A DNA stretch of 64,000 bases, taken from contig OX638318.1 of assembly GCA_951812585.1 (NCBI GenBank), positions 1,304,819 through 1,368,818 on the forward strand, in the 5' to 3' direction. Positions 50,602 to 61,942 of the stretch are shown here, piece by piece; position 1 is the first letter of the stretch; each line of letters begins with the position of its first letter. The stretch is from Rhodothermales bacterium (GTDB taxonomy: Bacteria; Bacteroidota; Rhodothermia; Rhodothermales; Bin80). A program made the position numbers and the translations under genes. The notes under the pieces are model-generated. The model saw only the letters and a list, made by a program, of their open reading frames with translations, was not told where the DNA came from and did not search any database.

Positions 50602-52014
50602 ATGCGTTCGACAATTATTCCGCTAGCTGCCGCGCTGCTCGTTGTTTTCGCCGGCTCCATGTTCGTCGGCTGCATGGGTGAAAATCGCCCGATGCCCGCT
50701 GCCGCCAAGCTGCCACCGCCCAACATCGTGCTGCTCTACTTTGATGATCTGGGGTGGAAAGACGTAGGGTTCAACGGTAGCCGCTACTATGAAACGCCCA
50801 ACATTGACCGGCTGGCAAGCGAAGGAATCATTTTCACCGATGCCTATGCCAACGCGCCTAATTGTGCGCCAAGCCGGGCTTCGCTGATGACTGGGCTCTA
50901 TGCGCCGCGGCACAAGATCTATACCGTGGGAAGCTCGGCGCGGGGCAGAGAAGAAAACCGCCGGATGGTTCCGGCACCCAATACAAGAGAGCTGGCGCTT
51001 CACTTCGTGACAGTGGCCGAAGCGCTACGCGAGGCAGGGTACACAACCGGGCATTTTGGCAAGTGGCATCTCGGCGGTACGGGCTTTCACCCCGAAGACC
51101 AGGGCTTTGGCGTGAATGTGGGTGGGTATTTCAGCGGAAGCCCGCGCGGCGGCTATTTCTCCCCGTACAGCAATCCCGCGTTGGTGGATGGCCCGGAAGG
51201 AGAATACCTGACTGATCGGTTGACTCACGAAGCCATGGCCTTCATTTCCGGGAACCGGGCGCGGCCATTCTTCCTTTTCCTCTCGCATTATGCCGTGCAT
51301 ACGCCCATTCAGGCCAAGGCTGACCTCATCGCGGGATACGAAGCCAAGTCTCCGGATGGCCGGCAGAACAACCCCGTTTATGCAGCCATGATCGAGAGCG
51401 CCGATCAAAGCGTAGGACAGGTGCTGAACCATCTGGACACGTTGGGCTTGGGGGACGACACCGTCGTACTCTTCTTTTCCGACAACGGTGGTGCCATGCA
51501 GGCTACCTCCAACGAGCCACTAAGGGGTCACAAGGGAATGCTGTACGAAGGAGGCATTCGCGTGCCGTTGGCCATTCGGTGGCCCGGTGAGATTGCCCCG
51601 GGCCGCGTGGAAGACACGCCGGTGATTGGCATCGACCTGTACCCGACGCTTCTGGATATTGCCGGTGTCGAGAGGCCGGGCCAGAGGCCGGACGGTATGA
51701 GCCTGATGCCCCTTTTAACCGGTACGGACGTGCTGTCGGCAAGGAGTCTCTACTGGCACTTTCCCGCGTATCTGGAAATGCCGCGTGGATTTCCCGGACC
51801 ATGGCGCACGACCCCGGCCGGAGCCATTCGTCGCGGCGACTTCAAGCTGATCGAGTTTTTTGAGGACGGCACGCTGGAACTTTACAACCTGCGGAGCGAC
51901 ATACAGGAAACGTCAAACCTGGCCGAAAGCATGCCGGAAATGGCTGAGGTGTTGCACGAGCGCCTGCAGGCTTGGCGTGAGGAAACAGGAGCCGATATGC
52001 CGTTGCCAAAATAG
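50602..52014 (+). CDS. Sulfatase, lipoprotein
   Basis: A 470-residue sulfatase. ATG 50602 starts a lipoprotein signal (AGSMFVGC, Cys 24). The metal pair DD is at 48-49, the formylglycine motif C88-A-P-S-R92 is intact, and the second metal block is FFSDNGGAM. HFGKWHLGG carries the conserved Lys and His of the sulfatase active site. C-terminal block ELYNLRSDIQETSNLAE is complete. It belongs to the arylsulfatase A-like group and stands alone, away from the glycan locus at the left end; whether it acts with it is unknown. Confidence 0.92.
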   Translation: MRSTIIPLAAALLVVFAGSMFVGCMGENRPMPAAAKLPPPNIVLLYFDDLGWKDVGFNGSRYYETPNIDRLASEGIIFTDAYANAPNCAPSRASLMTGLYAPRHKIYTVGSSARGREENRRMVPAPNTRELALHFVTVAEALREAGYTTGHFGKWHLGGTGFHPEDQGFGVNVGGYFSGSPRGGYFSPYSNPALVDGPEGEYLTDRLTHEAMAFISGNRARPFFLFLSHYAVHTPIQAKADLIAGYEAKSPDGRQNNPVYAAMIESADQSVGQVLNHLDTLGLGDDTVVLFFSDNGGAMQATSNEPLRGHKGMLYEGGIRVPLAIRWPGEIAPGRVEDTPVIGIDLYPTLLDIAGVERPGQRPDGMSLMPLLTGTDVLSARSLYWHFPAYLEMPRGFPGPWRTTPAGAIRRGDFKLIEFFEDGTLELYNLRSDIQETSNLAESMPEMAEVLHERLQAWREETGADMPLPK

Positions 52015-52461
52015 GCCATGGCCATTTACGAGCCGCAACCGTGGAAATCAAAACAGCTGCACGGCTACGTCATACGATTCCTGCTTCAAGAGCATCCTCT
52101 TGCGCAACCTAGCCTTTCCGCAAACTTCGAACCACGTATCGCGCGCAAACGCGCGGCTAACTGACACGGCCAACCGACTGTGGTACTACGTACTGTGGCA
52201 CTACGGGGCGCGTTCGGCTGCCCGAATGTCCGCCGCTGAGCACCTGCTCGGGTCAACCCGCGACGCGTGCGACCTAAGCGTCCCCCCAACCTGATTCTGC
52301 TGGAGCATGCCGCGAATCTATGCAGCAAGGTTCACGATGCCAGCAGGCAGGGCCGCGTAAACGTCAGCGGCGCAAAGGCATTAAGAAGTATCGGCGATGT
52401 GCGTCTATGTGCACGAGCAGCTTTTGGGGCTTGCGCGTCGAAGGAGGCCCGACATTGCAAC
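52015..52461. other. Intergenic region without recognisable gene
   Basis: About 450 bp between two convergent genes. Long frames antisense to the Fe-S oxidoreductase extend into it but have no domain. No clear terminator was recognised. Confidence 0.45.
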
Positions 52462-54468
52462 CTAATCGGAGAGGCGCTCCGCCAAGAGCTCGGCTACGTC
52501 TTTGACAACCAGTGGCTTGGCGTCCTTATTGGCTGCATCCGTCATCATAGTCAGGCAGAAGGGGCAACCCGTCGCGAGCGTTTGGGCGCCCGTGCCTGCT
52601 GCTTCTTCGTAACGGAGGCTGCTCACCGTGGGAGGTTCTTCTTCCATCCACATCTGCGCGCCTCCAGCGCCGCAGCAGAACGACTGCTTGCCACGGCGTG
52701 GCATCTCCAGTATCGGCAGCGCAAGCCCTTGCAACGCGTCCCGCGGTGCATCCACGATGCCATTTTGGCGGCCCAGGTAGCACGGATCGTGAAACGTCAC
52801 GCCGTCACCATTGGGTTGGGATTTAAGGTCAAGCTTCTCTTCAGCCAAGAGCTCCGCCAAAAGCTGCGTGTGGTGAATCACTTCGTAGTGCCCACCGAGG
52901 GCCCCGTACTCCTTGCCGAGCGTGTGCAGGCAATGCGGGCATGTGGTCAGGATGCGCTTGGGGCGCACCTTGTTCAGGGTCGCAATGTTGCCCCGCGCCA
53001 GGGTGTCGAAGAGGTACTCGTTGCCGCTACGACGGGCCGCGTCGCCGGTGCATCGCTCCTGGGCTCCCAGCACGGCAAATCGCACGCCGCCCGCATGCAA
53101 GAGCTTTACGAGGCTACGCGCGGTCATTTGGGCACGCTGATCATAGGATGGCGCACAACCTACCCACCACAGGATGTCCGCGTCCGGATCGTCGGCGATA
53201 GTCGGCACGTCGAGCCCGTCGGCCCAGGCCGTCCTGTCGGCAGCCCCGAGGTTCCACGGATTGCCATTGCGCTCCATGCCGCGGTATGCGCCTGTAAGCT
53301 CCGCTGGAAACCGATCCTCCATCAGCACTTCGCTCCGCCGTATGGCCAGAATGTCCAGCATCGGTTCATTGCCTACGGGGCAGATGTCTACGCACGCTCC
53401 GCACGCCGTGCAGGCCCATAGCGCCGATTCTGTGATCGCATACTCCAGCAGCGTCTTTTCCGAGGCGGCACCCTCGGCCAACGTGTGCATGTGCTCGTTC
53501 AGGAAGTACCGCTTATTGACTTCCAGGGCTGCCGGAGAGAGGTCCTTGCCGCTAGCGTACGCAGGGCATACGTCCTGGCACCGATTGCACATGATGCATG
53601 CAAAGGCATCCACGAGGCTTGTCGCCGGCAAGTCTTCGATGTGGCGCGCGCCGAAGGTCTCCAGCGACTCATCTTCAAAGTCGATGGGATCCAACGCGCC
53701 CATAGAGGTGCGTTCGGGCTTCGTCCAGTAATTGAAGCCCGCCATGATGAAGTGAAAGTGCTTCGTATACGGGAAGTAAGGAACAAAGAGCAGGATGAGT
53801 CCCAGCGCACCCCACCAGCACAGGTGGCGGCCAAGCACATGGTTGGCCTCGCCCAGAAGCGGCGCGATGGCGCTGGCCAGGGGTTGGTAGCGATCAGGGC
53901 CCTCCGCCGCTACGCCGTAGGCTTCGCCCAGGATCCTAAGGCCTACGTGGAGGACGATGAAGAGCCCTACGATCAGCGAATCGCGCGAAACGGTAAGCTG
54001 CATGAACTTGACCTGAACCGACGGAATGTGCCTGATGTCGCTCCGAAACGACAGCCGGCGCTTCTCTGGCGTCCAAAACCGTCGCACCAGGAGTGCCACC
54101 ATGCCGATGAGTACCAATCCGCTGAAGATGTCTGCACCCAGGCGATACAGGTTTCCAAGCACGCCGCGCCCCATAAGGTGCATACCGGTATAGCCCCAGA
54201 CCACATCCAGCACATTGACTGCCAGGTAGAAGACAAAGCCCCAGGCGATCATGGCGTGCACGACGCTCGTGACCCGACGCGCCTTCCAGATGGGCTTCAT
54301 GATGATCCAGGTCCCGAGCGCCTTCGCCATCCGCTTGCACTGCAGCCGGGGCTGCGGACCTGTGCCTCTGCCAATCGTCTTGAAGACGGCCGTGAAACCG
54401 CGCCACGCTGCGTACGCGGAGCACCCCGCAGCGAGAGCAAAGAGCACCTTTTCTATTGCCGTGAGCAT
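52462..54468 (-). CDS. Membrane-bound (Fe-S)-binding oxidoreductase with CCG domains (HdrD/GlpC-like)
   Basis: A 668-residue fusion. The N-terminal about 250 residues have five membrane helices of the heterodisulfide-reductase/NarI-type cytochrome b kind. Two 4Fe-4S motifs follow: CIMCNRCQDVCP (about 290) and CTACGACVDICP (about 350). The C-terminal part has two cysteine-rich CCG domains (TTCPHC, DPCYLG and SFCCGAGGAQMWM near 600). Such proteins pass electrons between quinones and soluble partners, for example in lactate, glycolate or acyl-CoA oxidation. The gene may be transcribed from the TACCTTGC element 24 bp upstream. Confidence 0.9.
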   Translation of the reverse strand: MLTAIEKVLFALAAGCSAYAAWRGFTAVFKTIGRGTGPQPRLQCKRMAKALGTWIIMKPIWKARRVTSVVHAMIAWGFVFYLAVNVLDVVWGYTGMHLMGRGVLGNLYRLGADIFSGLVLIGMVALLVRRFWTPEKRRLSFRSDIRHIPSVQVKFMQLTVSRDSLIVGLFIVLHVGLRILGEAYGVAAEGPDRYQPLASAIAPLLGEANHVLGRHLCWWGALGLILLFVPYFPYTKHFHFIMAGFNYWTKPERTSMGALDPIDFEDESLETFGARHIEDLPATSLVDAFACIMCNRCQDVCPAYASGKDLSPAALEVNKRYFLNEHMHTLAEGAASEKTLLEYAITESALWACTACGACVDICPVGNEPMLDILAIRRSEVLMEDRFPAELTGAYRGMERNGNPWNLGAADRTAWADGLDVPTIADDPDADILWWVGCAPSYDQRAQMTARSLVKLLHAGGVRFAVLGAQERCTGDAARRSGNEYLFDTLARGNIATLNKVRPKRILTTCPHCLHTLGKEYGALGGHYEVIHHTQLLAELLAEEKLDLKSQPNGDGVTFHDPCYLGRQNGIVDAPRDALQGLALPILEMPRRGKQSFCCGAGGAQMWMEEEPPTVSSLRYEEAAGTGAQTLATGCPFCLTMMTDAANKDAKPLVVKDVAELLAERLSD

Positions 54469-54491
54469 GGAACGCAGTCGAACTTAGCGAT

Positions 54492-54499
54492 GCAAGGTA
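54492..54499 (-). promoter_or_regulatory. Candidate promoter element TACCTTGC of the Fe-S oxidoreductase
   Basis: The minus strand reads GTACCTTGCATC, identical over 12 bases with the element before the MFS gene, 24 bp before the ATG at 54468. Confidence 0.4.
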
Positions 54500-54587
54500 C
54501 GCCGAACCGTGTCAGGCGTACTTTGCATTTGCTGTGGCCGATGCCTCCGCGGCAGCGGCCACAGCTGATTCCGGGCAGGCCCTGGCG

Positions 54588-55853
54588 TCAGTCCAGCGTA
54601 TAAAGCGCTGGATCAATCTCCAGCCGTGTGCCCTGCAGGATGGCGTTATTGGCCACGATGGCAATCACGGTCGCTTCCAGTCCCCGCTGGTAATCTGCAG
54701 CCGGAGGGTAAGGCCCGAACTCGTGGTTGTCCATGAATTCTTTCAGGGCATACCAGAGCGGCGTTTCTACGTTGGGATCATCCTCCGTAGGGTCCTGGTT
54801 CTGGGCATCCAGCTGCGTGGCGTTCGCCAGGAGGGCGATGCCTGTTTCCTTGTAGAACTTGTCCTTGCGCGCATACACCTCCCAGCCCAGCATGGGCGCA
54901 TCCACCTCCTTGAACATCCAGGCCTTTCCGCGGTCGCGAAACAGTATCGTGCTGTCCGTGCCGTAGTACGCCTCATACGCATCATCAAAGGAGCTCGCCA
55001 GCGTGGCATCGAACATCATGTTCATGCCGCTCGGAAACTCAAACATCGCCTGCACCGTGTCCGGCACCTCGCGATCATCTTGCCACGCCATGATCTGGCC
55101 GAATCCTGAAACCGCCTGGGGCAAGGCGCCCAGGACCCAATACGCGACGTCCATCTGGTGGATACCATGTTCGCCCATGAGTCCGATCGATACATTCGGA
55201 TCCAGGCGCCAGTTCAGTGCCTGCACGCGCTGCTGATTCGGCGAAGTCCGTCGCCAGCTTTCGCGCCGATGCCACTGGGCCCGGGCCATCGCCGGACGTC
55301 CGATCGCACCGCTGCGTATGAACTGAAATACGGACCGGTGCTGCGGGTTGGAGCGGTTTTGCTGTCCGACCTGAAAGACCTGTTCGTCCACGACGGCCCG
55401 TGCTGCCGCCGCCATGGTGCGTGCATCCTCAATGGAGGATGCCATGGGTGCCTCGCAGTAGACGTTCTTTCCCGCGTCGAGCGCACTGAGGGCGATGTCT
55501 TTGTGCAGGTGCGTCGGCGTCGCGACTATTACGGCCTGGATGTCTGGATTATCCAGGAGCGCGCGGTAGTCTTCGTGCCGGCTCGCCTCAGGATAGTCCC
55601 GCTGCGCACGGCGGAGCATGGTCGCATAGTTGTCGCAAATGGCAACAAGGTGCGCGCCTGGCACCCGCTGCAGGGTGGACGCGATTTCGCGCCCTCGAGG
55701 CCCGTAGCCTATCAGTCCTATGTTGACCTCGATGTCGGAGGTTGGCCTGGGGTGGACTAGGGCGGGATCCGGCCGTATCTCCACGGCGCGGGAAAGCCCC
55801 AGCAGCGAAGCTGCGCTGGTGCTGGTCTTCAGAAAGTCTCGTCGACTGATCAT
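54588..55853 (-). CDS. Gfo/Idh/MocA-family oxidoreductase, Tat-exported
   Basis: A 421-residue NAD(P)-dependent dehydrogenase of sugar-like substrates. The Tat signal is SRRDFLKTSTSAASLLGL. The Rossmann motif is GLIGYGPRGREIA (about 46-58); the sugar-dehydrogenase motif that normally reads EKP is EAP here (YCEAPMASS), a substitution also known in one exported subgroup. The C-terminal domain carries HGIHQMDVAYWVLGA and MGEHGIHQ with likely catalytic His and Asp. Together with DUF1080 and sulfatase proteins it may oxidise sugars at C3. The ApbE gene precedes the next gene pair on the same strand: this gene starts 10 bp downstream of nothing but follows ApbE in reverse order, i.e. it is transcribed first and ApbE's stop lies 9 bp after its start region on the opposite end. 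Confidence 0.85.
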   Translation of the reverse strand: MISRRDFLKTSTSAASLLGLSRAVEIRPDPALVHPRPTSDIEVNIGLIGYGPRGREIASTLQRVPGAHLVAICDNYATMLRRAQRDYPEASRHEDYRALLDNPDIQAVIVATPTHLHKDIALSALDAGKNVYCEAPMASSIEDARTMAAAARAVVDEQVFQVGQQNRSNPQHRSVFQFIRSGAIGRPAMARAQWHRRESWRRTSPNQQRVQALNWRLDPNVSIGLMGEHGIHQMDVAYWVLGALPQAVSGFGQIMAWQDDREVPDTVQAMFEFPSGMNMMFDATLASSFDDAYEAYYGTDSTILFRDRGKAWMFKEVDAPMLGWEVYARKDKFYKETGIALLANATQLDAQNQDPTEDDPNVETPLWYALKEFMDNHEFGPYPPAADYQRGLEATVIAIVANNAILQGTRLEIDPALYTLD

Positions 55854-55862
55854 GCTGATGTG

Positions 55863-56822
55863 TTATGCGTGGTGGTGTAAGGCTTGCGCCGGCGCGTGGA
55901 GGTCAATTCCTTCAGCATAGACGCCCCGTGGGCCGTACGCTATGAGCAGCTTCAATTTATCAAATTGTTCAGTAGTTGACCGGCGCTCGTCTGGTGTCAT
56001 CACCATGAGCGCCGTGGAGAGGGCATCCGCTGTCGTGGCGGAATCGTGCACAACGGCCGCCATCTCCGCGCCCTGCACTGGCCCGCCGCTACGCGGATCG
56101 ATGACGTGTCCGTACGATTTGCCATCCTTTTCGAACGCCTTGCCCCACGCAGCCGAAACCGACAGTGCCTGGCCTTTCAGCGGCACGACCGCCAGAGGCG
56201 GATCGCCGCACGCATGGGTATGCGATGCGGGAAGTGCGATACGCCAGGCTGCCTCTTGCGGGGGTGCGTCCAGCGCGATGATACTGCTGGTGCCGCCATG
56301 CAGCAGCGCGCGCTGCACGCCGCATGTGCGCAGGACCTTGGCCGCCTCGTCGATGGCATAGCCTTTCCCGATGCCGCCCAAATCTATGCTTGCGCCTTCC
56401 TGCAGGAACGATACCGCTCGTTCGTTACGATGCAACACGACATGCTGCATGCCCACCTTGCTGCGTGCATCGTGCAGGGCGTCTGGTTCCGGCCAGGCTC
56501 CTTTGCCCCGAACGAATCCCCAGCACCGCATCAGCGGCGCTACGGTGATGTCGAAGGCACCCTGCGTCCAGGCGGTCATCTCCGCCGCTTGCGCAAGCAG
56601 CTCATAGGTTTGCTGAGAAACCCGCACTGGTTGCCGGTGCGCAGACCGGTTAACGCGGCCGACATCGCTGGTCGGGCGATAGAAGCTGAGCACCGCTTCG
56701 AGCCGGCGGATTTCGGCCAGTGCTTCCTCGCCTGCTGCGCGCAGGTCCATTACGCTTTCGCCATACAGGACCAGCTCAAAGCGTGTCGCCATGGCTTCCA
56801 GCGCGAGCCTGACCGTTTCCAT
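55863..56822 (-). CDS. FAD:protein FMN transferase (ApbE family), apparently without signal peptide
   Basis: A 319-residue flavin transferase that attaches FMN to a Thr of a target protein. With ATG 56820-56822 the protein starts METVRLALEAMATRFELVLYG, i.e. directly with the mature domain; no lipoprotein or Sec signal is visible, whereas most ApbE proteins are exported. The frame is open further upstream (to 56924), also without a signal. The Mg/FAD motif DLGGIGKGYAIDEA and HVIDPRSGGPV are intact, as is DSATTADALSTALMVM. Transcribed upstream of the Gfo/Idh gene on the same strand with 9 bp between them, so the two form an operon. The FMN acceptor protein is not evident in the window. Confidence 0.88.
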   Translation of the reverse strand: METVRLALEAMATRFELVLYGESVMDLRAAGEEALAEIRRLEAVLSFYRPTSDVGRVNRSAHRQPVRVSQQTYELLAQAAEMTAWTQGAFDITVAPLMRCWGFVRGKGAWPEPDALHDARSKVGMQHVVLHRNERAVSFLQEGASIDLGGIGKGYAIDEAAKVLRTCGVQRALLHGGTSSIIALDAPPQEAAWRIALPASHTHACGDPPLAVVPLKGQALSVSAAWGKAFEKDGKSYGHVIDPRSGGPVQGAEMAAVVHDSATTADALSTALMVMTPDERRSTTEQFDKLKLLIAYGPRGVYAEGIDLHAPAQALHHHA

Positions 56823-56889
56823 GCGACCCAGCGTTTTCCCGACGTTGCAACGATTGTATAGTGTTCGACAGCACCGCTCTGAGGCCCCC

Positions 56890-58110
56890 TGCCAAGCACA
56901 AGTTACCATCCCTTGCGTTGGCATCCAGTGTCAGGTCCGCATCCGCCGCACGCCGCTTTTCGGGGTACACAGGCCTGCGGGGAGCTGACCAGGAGGAATT
57001 GAGCGAGAGGTTGGCGCGATCGAAGCTGCAGGTGCGCAGGGTCGGACACTGCTTCGTCGCTTGCTTCACGATGGGCACCGCGATGGCTACGTCTTGCTCC
57101 TTCCACAAAAACATATAGGTACGCACGAAGCCGTGTTGATCCTGCATGACGGCACCTGGAACGCCCAGCTCGGCCAGCACGCCCGCCTTGCCCTTAGTTG
57201 ATCCAGCGAGTCCAAAGCATGTAGAGCGCGAAGCGTCTCCCTGCGTGCGGAATCGTCTGCTCCTCCAGCAAGCGCCGTTTGGTTTGATCCAACAGCCGTT
57301 TGGCGCAGTCCAGGAAGTACCGAAGCGCAACAGGCCTGGACTCGCTGGCCTGCGACTCACTCAAAGCCGCAAGGTATTGCTCGCACAACCGGAGGTGTTT
57401 GCGCAAGCCCGACCGATTGCGCCTGTACTGGTGGGCGGTACGGATCGCGGCGAATCGTTTCTTCAGCATCTCTCGCCGATAGTGAATCTTACGCCAGCCG
57501 GGCAAGTCATGGGCGTCAGCAATCTTATGACTGAGCTGCACCACAGGCCGCGTCGCGTCAAGAGCAGACGGACATCGGTCGGCCACTCAACAGGGATTTT
57601 TATCACTTTCGAGTCACAGCGCCCGTGCAGAAGCGCGCTATCGTGATGTCCCACGGCCCGATGACCCGCCTAGACGATCAAAGCATTGAGCTGCTTCAGC
57701 AGCTCTGGCGACAAGCTGCTCACATTCTCAATCACCGTGGAGCCCTTGAAGGTGTGCCTCCCTGGAAGGTCCTGTCCTTGTCATCCAACACCTGGCGTAA
57801 CAGCCGATGGTGGGTCGCCTGGTCCACCAGCCGATCATAGCTGCAGTTGTGGCCTTGCTTCACCATGGCCAGCGCTACGACTTGCCAGGCCGACCCCGGT
57901 TTAGATCGGCCTCCCTGGAGAAGTGATCCGACAGCAGGCGCTCCAGCTTGACGCGGCAGACATCATCGTGCTGTAGCGTGACCAGCCCCAACAAGAGCTT
58001 GGTCATGGCATCGATGCACGGGGGTCGAACGCGATTGCCTCCAAATCCGGGGCGGCAAAAAGATCGGCGAATTCGTTGATTTTGTGCAGGTCTTCAAGCG
58101 AAGTGAGCAT
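56890..58110 (-). pseudogene. Decayed ISNCY-type transposase
   Basis: Pieces of one transposase in different frames, in the right order on the minus strand. From ATG 58108-58110: LTSLEDLHKINEFADLF, then VKQGHNCSYDRLVDQATHHRLLRQVL (about 57780-57860), then LPGWRKIHYRREMLKKRF, then LDQTKRRLLEEQTIPHAGRR (57194-57510), then KGKAGVLAELGVPGAVMQDQHGF and CSFDRANLSLNSSWSA. These blocks match the ISNCY family in order and spacing. Several frameshifts and in-frame stops separate them, and the last part is missing, so the element is dead. No terminal repeats could be found. Some blocks are only recognisable by reading across frames. Confidence 0.75.
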
Positions 58111-58603
58111 TTCGGGCCTCTGGCGTCAGAAGCGAACACATTCGCTTCGCTCACCGACCCACGATCGCTAAGCGCAGTCTCGAACGATTAGGTTGCTAAA
58201 GAGCTGATGACCGACCCCGATAGTAGGTGACGCCAATAGCGTCACACTCATCAGAATCTCTTCCGACCAAGCAATAGAGCAGCACAGATCGCAGCTCCCA
58301 GGAGTCAGCACGTATGCGCCTGGGGGCTGCCTGTCTGCACAGCTCCCGAGAGCCAGTGGTACGCATCCAAGCCCAGACGATGAATATCGTGGCTACCAGC
58401 GCGATGTGCGGCGCCAGTCCTGCAAGGTTGCTCTGGCTATTTGCCACGCCCCCACATCGGACTGGCGCTGCAACGAACAACGGTGTTGCTGAAGACACCT
58501 CCCGCGATGCCCTGGGGGAGTCTCCGCTGTACAAGAAACGGTGCAGGGCGTCTCCTACAAGCGCTGGGGGGCGGCCTTAGTGCTCAACAGGAGAATACCC
58601 CTC
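58111..58603. other. Intergenic region beside the ISNCY remnant
   Basis: About 490 bp. A minus-strand frame (58196-58534) contains one hydrophobic stretch but no recognisable domain. Probably debris beside the dead transposase. Confidence 0.4.
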
Positions 58604-59128
58604 TCAGGGTATGATGTCTATGCACACCCCGGCGGGGATGCCCCCCTCAGTGTTGTGCTGGAAACTAGCCCTGGCAGACGTGGCGCCATGCCGGGCCTTT
58701 TGTGCCCTTGGATGCGAGCGATCTTCGAAGGACTCGTACACCCGCTCGAACACGGCCGCGCTCCCCCCATAGAGCGTGCCCTCCACCCTGCACGAAGCAT
58801 TGACAAGAGCAAACCAGGCCTTGCGCGACTGATCTTCGGTGCCGTCCCGGAATATCCGTCCCAGCTCTTCAGCAAACGCGTCCAGCTCGGCAGCCGTCCG
58901 GGGCTCGAACACCTGCTTTAGTATGGCCACGGCTGCAGAGTTGGCATAGTAGTCTTGGTCAGGATCGTCCGCCATCAGCAGGCGCAGTGCCATCTCTATT
59001 GACGGCGCCCGCCAAACTCCGTCAACCATTACCGCGCCGTACTTGTGCTTGTAGTTGTCTTCGGCTTCCTGGGCTTGCGCACCGGCGGGAAGCAGCAGCA
59101 GTGAAAGCCATAACATCAGTTTCTTCAT
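58604..59128 (-). CDS. Secreted hypothetical protein
   Basis: A 174-residue exported protein. Signal peptide MKKLMLWLSLLLLPAGAQAQ, preceded by GGAGGAAAACC at a normal distance, so the start is secure. The mature part is helical and acidic with one Cys at the position SCRVEG; the C-terminus (about 130-174) is Ser/Ala/Gly rich. No domain is recognised. It follows the zincin-like gene by 13 bp on the same strand, so the two are an operon and may act together, for example as a peptidase and partner. Confidence 0.65.
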   Translation of the reverse strand: MKKLMLWLSLLLLPAGAQAQEAEDNYKHKYGAVMVDGVWRAPSIEMALRLLMADDPDQDYYANSAAVAILKQVFEPRTAAELDAFAEELGRIFRDGTEDQSRKAWFALVNASCRVEGTLYGGSAAVFERVYESFEDRSHPRAQKARHGATSARASFQHNTEGGIPAGVCIDIIP

Positions 59129-59141
59129 TGGTTTTCCTCCG

Positions 59142-59747
59142 TTAGCATCCTTTCTTACCTGAGGAGTGGCCCTGTATCCCGGGGTAAGAATTCAACCACG
59201 TTGAGCCATAGTACCTCCAAAACGCATTCCCGTTCGGATACTCGGACGCATACTCGGCGGCGGGATAGAGCTTGTTGACGTAGTAATCCTGCCACGCGTC
59301 ATTTGCTTTCGTCTGCACTTCACCCTTGTTGCCGGTAATCTTCTCGATCTTCTTCATCACCGCGCGGGTCGTTGAGCTACGCAAGCACTCGTTGTGGCCC
59401 TTCTCATGCTCCCGCTCATGCTCGATGAGATCATTCCTGAATTCCCCCATATACTGCAGGGTCTGGCAGCTTGTGTTTACGGTATGGTAGGATTCGCTGG
59501 AACCGAGCGCTGGCACTGGGTTCATGCAGGTATTGTTGGCCCCGGGATACGTGGGGAGATTCGAGGGGTTGCTGGGGTTGTAATCCTCGCGAACGTGGAG
59601 CTCAGTAGGAACAACTGGAAAACGCGACGTGAAATGCTGGCCCGCCCACGGGCCAGACCCTTCCTCTATATCAACTGTATAGACTCTTCCCAGTCTGAAA
59701 AACGCCAAATAACCTTGCTGCCTCGGCTCCTCGGTATACTGGACCAC
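59142..59747 (-). CDS. Putative zincin-like secreted protein, 5'-truncated
   Basis: A 201-residue product from GTG 59745-59747. The motif HEREHEKGH (HExxHxxxH) near residue 110, flanked by LIE and NECL, looks like a zinc site similar to DUF922-type proteins. Four Cys (in NNTCMNP, NTSCQT, NECLRS and at the C-terminus) suggest an exported, disulfide-bonded protein, but no signal peptide is present. The open frame goes on upstream to about 59850 (IPQPSNAVVQYTEE), which reads like the middle of a protein, and then enters the mobile element. I infer that the 5' end with the signal peptide was lost. The downstream secreted gene follows after 13 bp. Confidence 0.6.
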   Translation of the reverse strand: MVQYTEEPRQQGYLAFFRLGRVYTVDIEEGSGPWAGQHFTSRFPVVPTELHVREDYNPSNPSNLPTYPGANNTCMNPVPALGSSESYHTVNTSCQTLQYMGEFRNDLIEHEREHEKGHNECLRSSTTRAVMKKIEKITGNKGEVQTKANDAWQDYYVNKLYPAAEYASEYPNGNAFWRYYGSTWLNSYPGIQGHSSGKKGC

Positions 59748-59983
59748 GGCATTCGACGGCTGTGGTATTGGCCAAGTCCGCGCGGAAACATCGATTGTCT
59801 CCGAATCTTGGAACAGCGTTGCGCCCTGGTGATGCGGTAGAAATCGGATTCACTCAGCTTTCCGCTTAAGGTTACGTCAATCAAATACCGCTTGATTTCA
59901 TGCGCCGCGTCTGCCAATTCTCGGCCCGTATGCAAGTTGGCCAAGATGAATCGGGCGCGCGCCAGTATCTCCCTATTGCTCAT
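59666..59983 (-). CDS. Hypothetical 105-residue protein downstream of the methyltransferase
   Basis: ATG 59981-59983 overlaps the end of the methyltransferase gene. The first 50 residues (SNREILARARFILANLHTGR, then HEIKRYLIDVTLSGKLSESDFY) look like a real helical protein; from about residue 52 the frame runs into the region of the truncated zincin gene and ends as Arg/Ser-rich sequence. So the natural C-terminus is probably lost or replaced at about 59830. Function unknown; may be an accessory to the methyltransferase. Confidence 0.45.
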   Translation of the reverse strand: MSNREILARARFILANLHTGRELADAAHEIKRYLIDVTLSGKLSESDFYRITRAQRCSKIRRQSMFPRGLGQYHSRRMPWSSIPRSRGSKVIWRFSDWEESIQLI

Positions 59984-60791
59984 GTCGCGCCCGGTATTGC
60001 TCTGCAAACTCGTGCTTCGTGAGCCAATATACGCCACCATTCGCGCATGAATTGCCCCGCCAGTCAACTTGCCGGATTCTCTTTGCCAACACGGCAGCAT
60101 CAATCAGGGCTTTCAAAAAGTGCCCACGGTTATTCGGCTTCGGATCGGTAATTACACGTCTTGGTGAGGCCCCGAACACGAATAGATCAAAGTCCCTGCG
60201 TGTCGAAAACAGAAAGTCTTTGGTGCCCGTTACCTTTGCAGGTGGACGGACTCGAAGGTCTGGACCACTCGATTTATCCAGCACAAAAAAACTGGCGGGC
60301 ACATGGTGGATATTGCCATCAAGCGTAAAGCAATCCCGTCCCAAGTCCGTGATCGAAACTATGCGCCAATCCTTAGGAATGACGCGCTGCCGCGTGTGTT
60401 TGCGATACACATTAGGCAGGATAAACGCAATGGTCTGCACATTAGGAAATGCCATTGCGTGCTGAATGAACGCCTTGGATAGCGCGTGGTAGCGTCCGTA
60501 GGGAGGATTACCAAACACCAAGACGTTCTTATGGGCAGAATCTAGATCGAAGTCAAACCAATCTGCCTTTACAATGCTGGAGTGCTGTGGGTCAATGTCG
60601 ATACCGACCTTGTTATGATGTTCAACTGCTGTAAGGAAGGTTCCACTTCCGGCAGACGGCTCAATAATCAGGTCGTACCTAGACAAGTCGCACAGTTGCT
60701 CCAGGCATTTACACACCACATGGGGGCGCGTGAAATACTGATCCAGAGCTTGCCCAACTGTCGCAGGTTCGATGCGTTTCAGTTGATGCAC
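59973..60791 (-). CDS. N6-adenine DNA methyltransferase
   Basis: A 272-residue amino-methyltransferase with gamma-type order: QYFTRP (19-24), motif I EPSAGSG (44-50), and the catalytic NPPYG (95-99). Start GTG 60789-60791 follows immediately after the TAA of the broken IS1595-type transposase (TAAGTG), and the small gene at 59983 overlaps its end. No restriction endonuclease is nearby, so it is an orphan methyltransferase or mobile-element cargo. The recognition site is not predictable. Its codon use and A+T content are higher than in flanking genes, consistent with transfer. Confidence 0.88.
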   Translation of the reverse strand: MHQLKRIEPATVGQALDQYFTRPHVVCKCLEQLCDLSRYDLIIEPSAGSGTFLTAVEHHNKVGIDIDPQHSSIVKADWFDFDLDSAHKNVLVFGNPPYGRYHALSKAFIQHAMAFPNVQTIAFILPNVYRKHTRQRVIPKDWRIVSITDLGRDCFTLDGNIHHVPASFFVLDKSSGPDLRVRPPAKVTGTKDFLFSTRRDFDLFVFGASPRRVITDPKPNNRGHFLKALIDAAVLAKRIRQVDWRGNSCANGGVYWLTKHEFAEQYRARHEQ

Positions 60792-61737
60792 TTACGCCAC
60801 CAAGTCTTTGTACAGCAGCCGTTTTCCGACCATAGCGGCCACAACGTGGCCCATCTGGTCGATAGTATCGAGGCCGCGAAGGTTGTGTTTGCCCGCGAAC
60901 TGATCCACGTAGCGCTGTAGGTGCTTCGGGCTGATGTGATGGTACACGCCGTGATAGGCGCGCTTCAGCACGGCCCAGAACGATTCGACGCCGTTTGTGT
61001 GGGCTTAGCCATTCAGGTACTCCGAGACACTGTGGCGTACGCTATCGTGGTTCTCAAGCCCGATATAGGCACGTACATCATCAGTGTAGACTTTCGCACC
61101 GTCTTCCGCGTGCTCATGCACAAAGCCTTGCAGTGCCGGCTTATCGGTGCTTGCCAACACACGCGCCGTAACGCTGTTGCTGTTCCGGTCTTTCATGCCA
61201 ACGACGGCCGTTTTGCCGACCGGTCCGCGTCCCAGGTTAGCTTTCTTACTGGCGTGCTTGTTCTTCTCCAGTCCACCGAAGTACGCCTCGTCAACCTCGA
61301 CCGGCCCCCTCAAACTCCATCGGCGTATCCAGGCTGAATGCCTCACGGATGCGACGCAGCATGAACCAAGCCGTCGTTTGGGTCACGCCAAGATCACGGT
61401 GTAGCTTCATGCTCGAAACACCTTTCAGGCTGGCTTTCTCAAGATAAATGGCGTATACCCACTTGCGCAAGGGGATTTTGGATGACTGCAAGGCCGTGCC
61501 GGTCTTAACACTGAAGAACCGATTACACTCGCGGCAACGGTATGGCATCTGCTTGTGTGTGCTACGATACACGTTCTGTCCCTTGCAACGCGGGCACGTG
61601 GTGCCCTCCGGCCATATCACATTCTCGAACCATTTGTGCGCCGATGCTTCATCGGGAAACATATCCTGCAACTGCAACAGCGTGATCCCCTTGCGTTCGT
61701 TCCTTCCAAGCGTTTTCTTCGTGTCTGTATTGGGCAT
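60792..61737 (-). pseudogene. IS1595-type (ISXO2-like DDE) transposase with frameshift and stop
   Basis: From ATG 61735-61737 the protein has the zinc ribbon (CPRCKGQNVY, then CRECNRFF), a helix-turn-helix block (VTQTTAWFMLRRIREAF) and the DDE region (VEVDEAYFGG, VYTDDVRAY, then AHTNGVESFWAVLKR with the final E), ending at TAA 60792-60794. Two lesions: a C run at 61305-61309 on the plus strand (five instead of four) shifts the frame before VEVDEAY, and TAA at 61005-61007 replaces the residue before AHTNGVE. Without these it would be full length (about 314 residues). The gene is inactive now unless read through. Confidence 0.88.
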
Positions 61738-61942
61738 GATGTTGTCCGTTTGATATAATGCCCTATACGCGCCCCGCGAGGAAAGTTTCAGTTTCTTATA
61801 TAATTCCCTTAGCAAACCTCCCGCATAAGGCGCACCGACCCAAGCACACTGCCGATCAGCTCAGGCTTCCTAGGAGCTGCCATGCAGATCCTGCGATGGT
61901 CCCCTGGTGGTTGCTATTGCAGCGCTCTGGGTTCGCGCGCAG

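Follow-up and report, generated by a model that had tools for sequence, protein, structure and literature searches.

The window analysed here, a stretch of 64,000 nucleotides within the 3.2-Mb single-contig genome of a Rhodothermales bacterium, very probably contains what is left of an IS1595-family transposon that has decayed and lost its left part; its cargo would have been a type II restriction-modification (R-M) pair, and we propose an addiction-type mechanism for it. The minus strand between positions 59822 and 61809 presents, one after another, a terminal repeat of the IS1595 type, a broken transposase gene, an intact methyltransferase (MTase) gene and the start of an endonuclease gene coding for 54 residues, all reading the same way. 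The assignment to a class of IS1595 elements with coupled R-M cargo follows from a transposase-MTase junction that recurs at other loci, and from complete relatives that carry R-M genes. A preliminary description of this DNA had already proposed an IS1595 element with an MTase as cargo; the recurring junction and the two-ended relatives bear this out, but the cargo was an R-M pair and the ends of the element lie elsewhere than had been suggested.

The transposase pseudogene (60792-61737, minus strand) survives as three pieces, at 61291-61815, 61005-61346 and 60792-61004. It is broken, as previously described: the frame shifts once, near 61291-61346, and is interrupted once by a TAA codon at 61005-61007. 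Reading of the sequence places its likely start at the ATG at 61735-61737. The pieces match the Pfam families Zn_ribbon_IS1595 (1.2e-10) and DDE_Tnp_IS1595 (1.8e-18 and 1.3e-6) as well as the NCBIfam model transpos_IS1595, such that the zinc ribbon and the ISXO2-like DDE transposase typical of the IS1595 family are both present, in pieces of a broken gene. The terminal inverted repeat at the 5' end of the transposase, GGGAATTATATAAGAAACTGAAA (minus strand, 61787-61809, outer GGG at 61809), matches the termini of the ordinary IS1595 insertions that this genome also contains. With a position-weight matrix derived from these own-genome ends (22 training rows, the repeat of the window among them), it scores 23.9 at 61786-61806, against a shuffle maximum of 9.7 in 12 kb. 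This right terminal repeat is thus present and the left end is lost: the scan found no left partner, and the outer 8 bases, sought as a target duplication, are absent elsewhere in 52001-61800. The 9-base inverted repeats formerly suggested as the ends were rejected as chance matches, two 201-bp end stretches yielding four pairs with at most one mismatch where 30 shuffles gave 4.6 on average (range 1-13). Their left arm is coding sequence, corresponding to the codons for 'YRI' in the small open reading frame (ORF) behind the MTase, and is conserved among homologues.

The N6-adenine MTase gene (59973-60791, minus strand) is an open frame of 272 aa, as the preliminary description had it. Its product contains the motifs EPSAGSGTF and FGNPPYGR, in the order characteristic of the gamma class (EPSAGSG, then NPPY), and matches the PADLOC model MTase_II (2.8e-29); the SAM and catalytic motifs of a type II R-M MTase are therefore in place. 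The match to M.TaqI is weak (E 0.06), and the predicted structure has a mean pLDDT of 53.7. Relatives share 66-73% identity with the MTase of the window, and the named near ones come from Rhodothermales metagenome genomes; phages encode distant MTases of up to 37% identity, and distant MTases also occur in six plasmid records. In a tree of 13 MTases, three of the ten inner branches are starred, and the position of the window sequence is not clear, its support being weak. The genome of the window encodes a further MTase of this type, which stands alone and is about 67% identical (L080, G000:C1:38388-39200), with a C-terminal transposase fossil immediately upstream. In two genomes, a protein of 1092 aa that contains an N6_N4_Mtase domain is encoded just 3' of a solo MTase (L053, 6257-9535). 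At L081 and L172, and at L086, which represent two families, the MTase gene lies directly 3' of a class II ribonucleotide reductase gene, the downstream side of which is possibly an insertion hotspot.

The small ORF starts at the ATG at 59981-59983 and overlaps the MTase gene, as had been noted, the overlap being 11 nt. Over its 54 aa it shares 57% identity with a 191-residue protein encoded directly 3' of the MTase at L086 (4951-5526), and its homologues align with a GD...YEYK motif (GD...YEYKASGFN), which we take to be a PD-(D/E)xK-like pattern. On these sequence grounds the ORF (59822-59983, minus strand) is a putative truncated restriction endonuclease, reduced to its first 54 residues. 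Because it corresponds to the start of the nuclease-like protein that stands behind the same MTase in relatives, the cargo would have been a type II R-M pair; since only 54 of about 190 residues are left, the window lacks the adjacent intact endonuclease of such a system and holds its relic, and the MTase is now an orphan. The endonuclease family occurs in 6 of 114 genomes of the order, always next to the MTase or an MTase remnant; one more piece, decayed and on a contig of 5.2 kb (G395:C184), showed no MTase. Full-length endonuclease genes were found at L086 and L173 only, that of L175 being cut near its end and that of L087 having no in-frame start. The family gave no Pfam or PADLOC match with the models and thresholds used, no meaningful PDB sequence match, and no match in phages, plasmids or viral contigs at the thresholds used.

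Homology of the truncated frame to the endonuclease stops at 59822, so that the left break of the element lies at about 59821, and the frame reads through into foreign sequence (59666-59821, minus strand). It thereby runs into a 5'-truncated gene (59142-59849) with an HExxxH-like stretch, HEREHEKGHNE, whose homologues are longer and number several per genome in G398 and other relatives. The flanking genes, which from their sequences we presume to be Gfo/Idh-like and ApbE-like, are 95 bp apart in a genome of the same genus but about 5.1 kb apart here. The region missing from that genome (56822-61940) contains the element together with other debris, which indicates that the element lies within a lineage-specific insertion.

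The preliminary description had pointed out that the transposase stop is followed at once by the MTase start, and had proposed looking for the same pair in other genomes. Both points held: in the window the TAA (60792-60794) and the GTG (60789-60791) meet without a gap on the minus strand, the junction spanning 60789-60794, and such a stop-start junction recurs at three other loci, as TAA|ATG at L269 and L082, and at L268 with a one-base difference right behind the ATG. At the decayed locus L269 (the same as L177, G395:C29), the transposase ends in GCGTAA, the MTase begins at once with ATGCACCAACTT, and endonuclease pieces come next. At L082, the TAA of a transposase fossil ending in '...GKRIVYKGLVA*' abuts the ATG of the MTase. 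At L268, which has the closest transposase (its C-terminal piece is 90% identical to that of the window), the TAA is followed by ATGCAACCAACT, the rest of the MTase being gone. In a more distant pair, at L152 (G270:C79), an IS1595 transposase gene overlaps an MTase gene (MTase_II, 2.2e-57), and two short ORFs there give weak REase_II matches.

C-terminal transposase fossils upstream of the MTase score above all 200 shuffles at L080, L082, L087 and L172, and above 199 of 200 at L081. At the other loci scored in this way (L083, L084, L085, L086, L173, L174 and L175), upstream similarity is at chance level, so that no significant fossil is seen at 7 of the 13 full-length MTase loci; L083 and L084 have downstream genes in common with L082. 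The case named beforehand as speaking against the MTase as cargo, relatives in which it stands without the transposase, thus exists in several genomes, but five loci keep the fossil upstream. That the MTase moved alone as a small cassette was rejected for the loci with fossils, a verdict that leaves L086 and L175 aside. At these two loci (G301:C4 and G462:C25), an MTase-endonuclease pair occupies one chromosomal site in opposite orientations and without a transposase, reflecting either an inversion or two independent insertions; the pair can therefore move or invert by other means as well. No complete window-type copy comprising transposase, MTase, endonuclease and both ends was found among the loci recovered. 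A candidate left repeat at L087 scores 14.0 and is only suggestive, about 17 such matches being expected per 3 Mb per strand.

Complete elements with cargo of this kind were found in a survey of the order. The transposase search gave matches in 31 of 114 genomes, and 66 loci, picked mostly by score, provided 71 transposase places, of which 57 were long enough to examine. Terminal repeats matching at least 19 of 22 bases are present at both ends in 26 of these 57. The distance from the end of the transposase to the outer end of the right repeat is below 250 bp in 5 elements, which are plain, 370-868 bp in 7, and 1.4-2.4 kb in 14. Eleven of these 14 carry MTase or R-M cargo of unrelated types; none was seen in the other three (L153, L184 and a reverse copy in L193). 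The cargo consists of EcoRI_methylase with GmrSD_N in L180 and L222; of N6_Mtase/HSDR_N with Methylase_S, in two frames, in L181; of N6_N4_Mtase fused to HNH in L189, L215 and L201, or fused to Mrr_cat in L207 and L209; and of N6_N4_Mtase accompanied by REase_II in L216 or by an unknown protein in L225. L154 gives weak Eco57I and Tsp45I matches, below the cut-offs of Pfam. Three further loci with R-M cargo (L195, L186 and L219) have no detected right repeat, and other coupled cargo includes a SocA/Panacea-like gene in L204 and the genes in L187 and L203. The genome of the window itself harbours two further IS1595 elements, near G000:C1 2226964 (L201) and 2115855 (L217), the former enclosing its MTase-HNH fusion and the latter apparently a decayed fusion of this sort.

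Exact 8-bp target duplications flank 14 of the 26 elements with both repeats, and 8 of the 11 with R-M cargo. For L154, L181, L189, L207 and L225, the null gives a chance of 0.006 of an exact match each; the duplications of L209, L215 and L216 come from a looser search, and this null belongs to the stricter one. For the remaining three, 6 of 8 bases match in L222, no duplication is present in L201, and L180 reaches the ends of its contig. The first cargo gene overlaps the transposase stop as ATGA in L181, L189, L209, L186 and L187, and as TAATG in L180 and L207; it abuts the stop directly in L154, L269, L082 and the window, and starts 6 nt behind it in L216 and 21 nt behind it in L195. From this overlapping and abutting geometry only, we infer that translation of the cargo may be coupled to that of the transposase. 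Across the wider phylum, 74 of 395 genomes gave a transposase match, and R-M cargo was recognisable in one of the 20 loci fetched (L258, a D12 MTase with HNH); of 147 plasmid records, 8 were looked at and showed no annotated R-M gene in their IS1595 contexts. The R-M-carrying class may thus be concentrated in Rhodothermales. In Roseomonas marmotae (L262, NZ_CP061092.1), an IS1595 transposase gene overlaps a hypothetical gene by 4 nt and a PIN-domain gene follows, so that genes other than R-M can be coupled passengers too.

Two other accounts of the juxtaposition were weighed. The transposase and the MTase could be chance neighbours, an IS1595 copy having inserted beside an R-M operon already in place and then lost its tail by deletion, which fused it to the MTase start. 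Such a junction could be left by a deletion since in ordinary IS1595 copies the transposase stop is immediately followed by the 3' repeat, and several relatives have the MTase without a detectable transposase. This account would nevertheless have to produce the identical junction more than once, at different loci of two genera, and place transposase fossils before MTases at unrelated sites, and it does not fit the two-ended elements, flanked by target duplications, that enclose R-M cargo; it is strongly disfavoured, and we regard it as very improbable. Alternatively, the MTase could serve the transposon by methylating its ends or promoter and so timing transposition, as its start joined to the transposase stop might suggest and as PMC9296519 describes for IS10, IS50 and IS903, which are under control by Dam. 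The cargo MTases, however, come from families that are not related to one another and presumably differ in their target sites, while the elements have similar ends, and nucleases accompany the MTases; we consider a role of this kind improbable, if somewhat less so than chance proximity.

A further proposal concerns present function only and is compatible with the transposon origin, which it leaves unexplained: the MTase may now be a domesticated orphan with a role for the host, for example in regulation, its link to the transposase being a matter of history. The MTase frame is open at all 13 full-length loci, no intact window-type transposase was found, and the endonuclease is complete at two loci only. 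The dN/dS values of MTase pairs are 0.23 (L081/L172), 0.164 (L083/L084), 0.125 (L082/L083), 0.139 (L082/L084) and 0.075 (L086/L175). In the first four pairs both MTases stand alone, with no endonuclease detected, which suggests that selection continues without the endonuclease; the earlier impression of a cargo under selection is thus borne out by these four pairs (0.125-0.23), and purifying selection on the solo MTase is supported, as judged from sequence comparison. Against a host role, 6 of 16 genomes of the family, the same-genus G400 included, have no match to the window-type MTase, so that its role would not be essential. Domestication is, in our estimation, a real possibility that falls a little short of an even chance.

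Under the preferred reading of the window as a decayed IS1595 transposon with a former R-M pair, one transcript from the transposase promoter would be translated through the TAA|GTG junction, so that production of the MTase would accompany that of the transposase and precede that of the endonuclease. In a newly entered cell, host DNA would first be protected by the MTase; the endonuclease would then make loss of the element costly and cut unmodified incoming DNA, and retention would be favoured because loss would expose the genome to residual nuclease. Retention by addiction has been proposed for toxin-antitoxin genes in Tn3 transposons (PMC7157771). The costly transposase and endonuclease would decay later and the MTase would stay, at first because its loss while the endonuclease is active would kill the cell, and at a later stage as a solo gene under purifying selection. 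The broader proposition, to which we assign about even chances, is that R-M systems of unrelated kinds are taken up time and again, directly behind the transposase stop, by a class of IS1595 elements in Rhodothermales and in at least one genome of another family in the phylum, forming one 'take me or die' unit that spreads R-M genes and leaves domesticated solo MTases behind.

R-M systems are already known to move, and the vehicles that carry them, like the origin of orphan MTases, have so far been mostly guessed. The complete elements of sister genomes suggest a recurrent route for the spread of such defence genes: within well-defined ends, these small elements carry cargo of several unrelated designs, in many cases coupled to the stop codon of the transposase, among them EcoRI-type MTases with GmrSD/HNH-type nucleases, MTase-HNH and MTase-Mrr fusions, HsdM-type MTases with a specificity domain, and MTases with a separate nuclease. 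They would also make traceable a path from a mobile R-M system to an orphan MTase in which the transposase and the nuclease decay first, and they offer a testable model of addiction-assisted transposition. The founding paper on IS1595, by Siguier et al. in 2009, reportedly discusses passenger genes. No IS1595 element with R-M cargo was found in the literature searched, which covers the field in part and does not include that paper; passenger genes in IS1595 elements are known, and it is their recurrence as R-M cargo for which, the 2009 paper aside, no print record was found.

The closest known counterparts are the IS1595-family elements with passenger genes termed tIS, exemplified by MTnSag1/tISSag10 and tISCpe8, which have the same DDE transposase, terminal repeats, target duplications and passenger gene inside the ends; the passengers of the examples described there confer mobilisation functions and, going by a cited title, lincomycin resistance, whereas here an R-M system is coupled to the transposase stop (PMC5704250). 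Cargo other than transposition genes lies between two ends in the 11 relatives with MTase or R-M genes, the window having lost its left end. The cargo itself resembles type II R-M systems with a gamma-class (M.TaqI-like) MTase in its adjacent, overlapping MTase and endonuclease genes and its MTase_II match, but its endonuclease family lacks a match among the Pfam and PADLOC models used, and the copy in the window is truncated. Toxin-antitoxin genes in transposons of the Tn3 family likewise form a two-gene, addiction-type cargo of many unrelated types beside the transposition genes; these transposons belong to another family, have another cargo and carry these genes at the resolution site rather than behind the transposase stop (PMC7157771). 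Tn7-like transposons also carry R-M systems inside defined ends (PMC8649781), but are larger and accommodate many kinds of cargo, while the elements described here span about 2.5-3.5 kb and carry one R-M unit.
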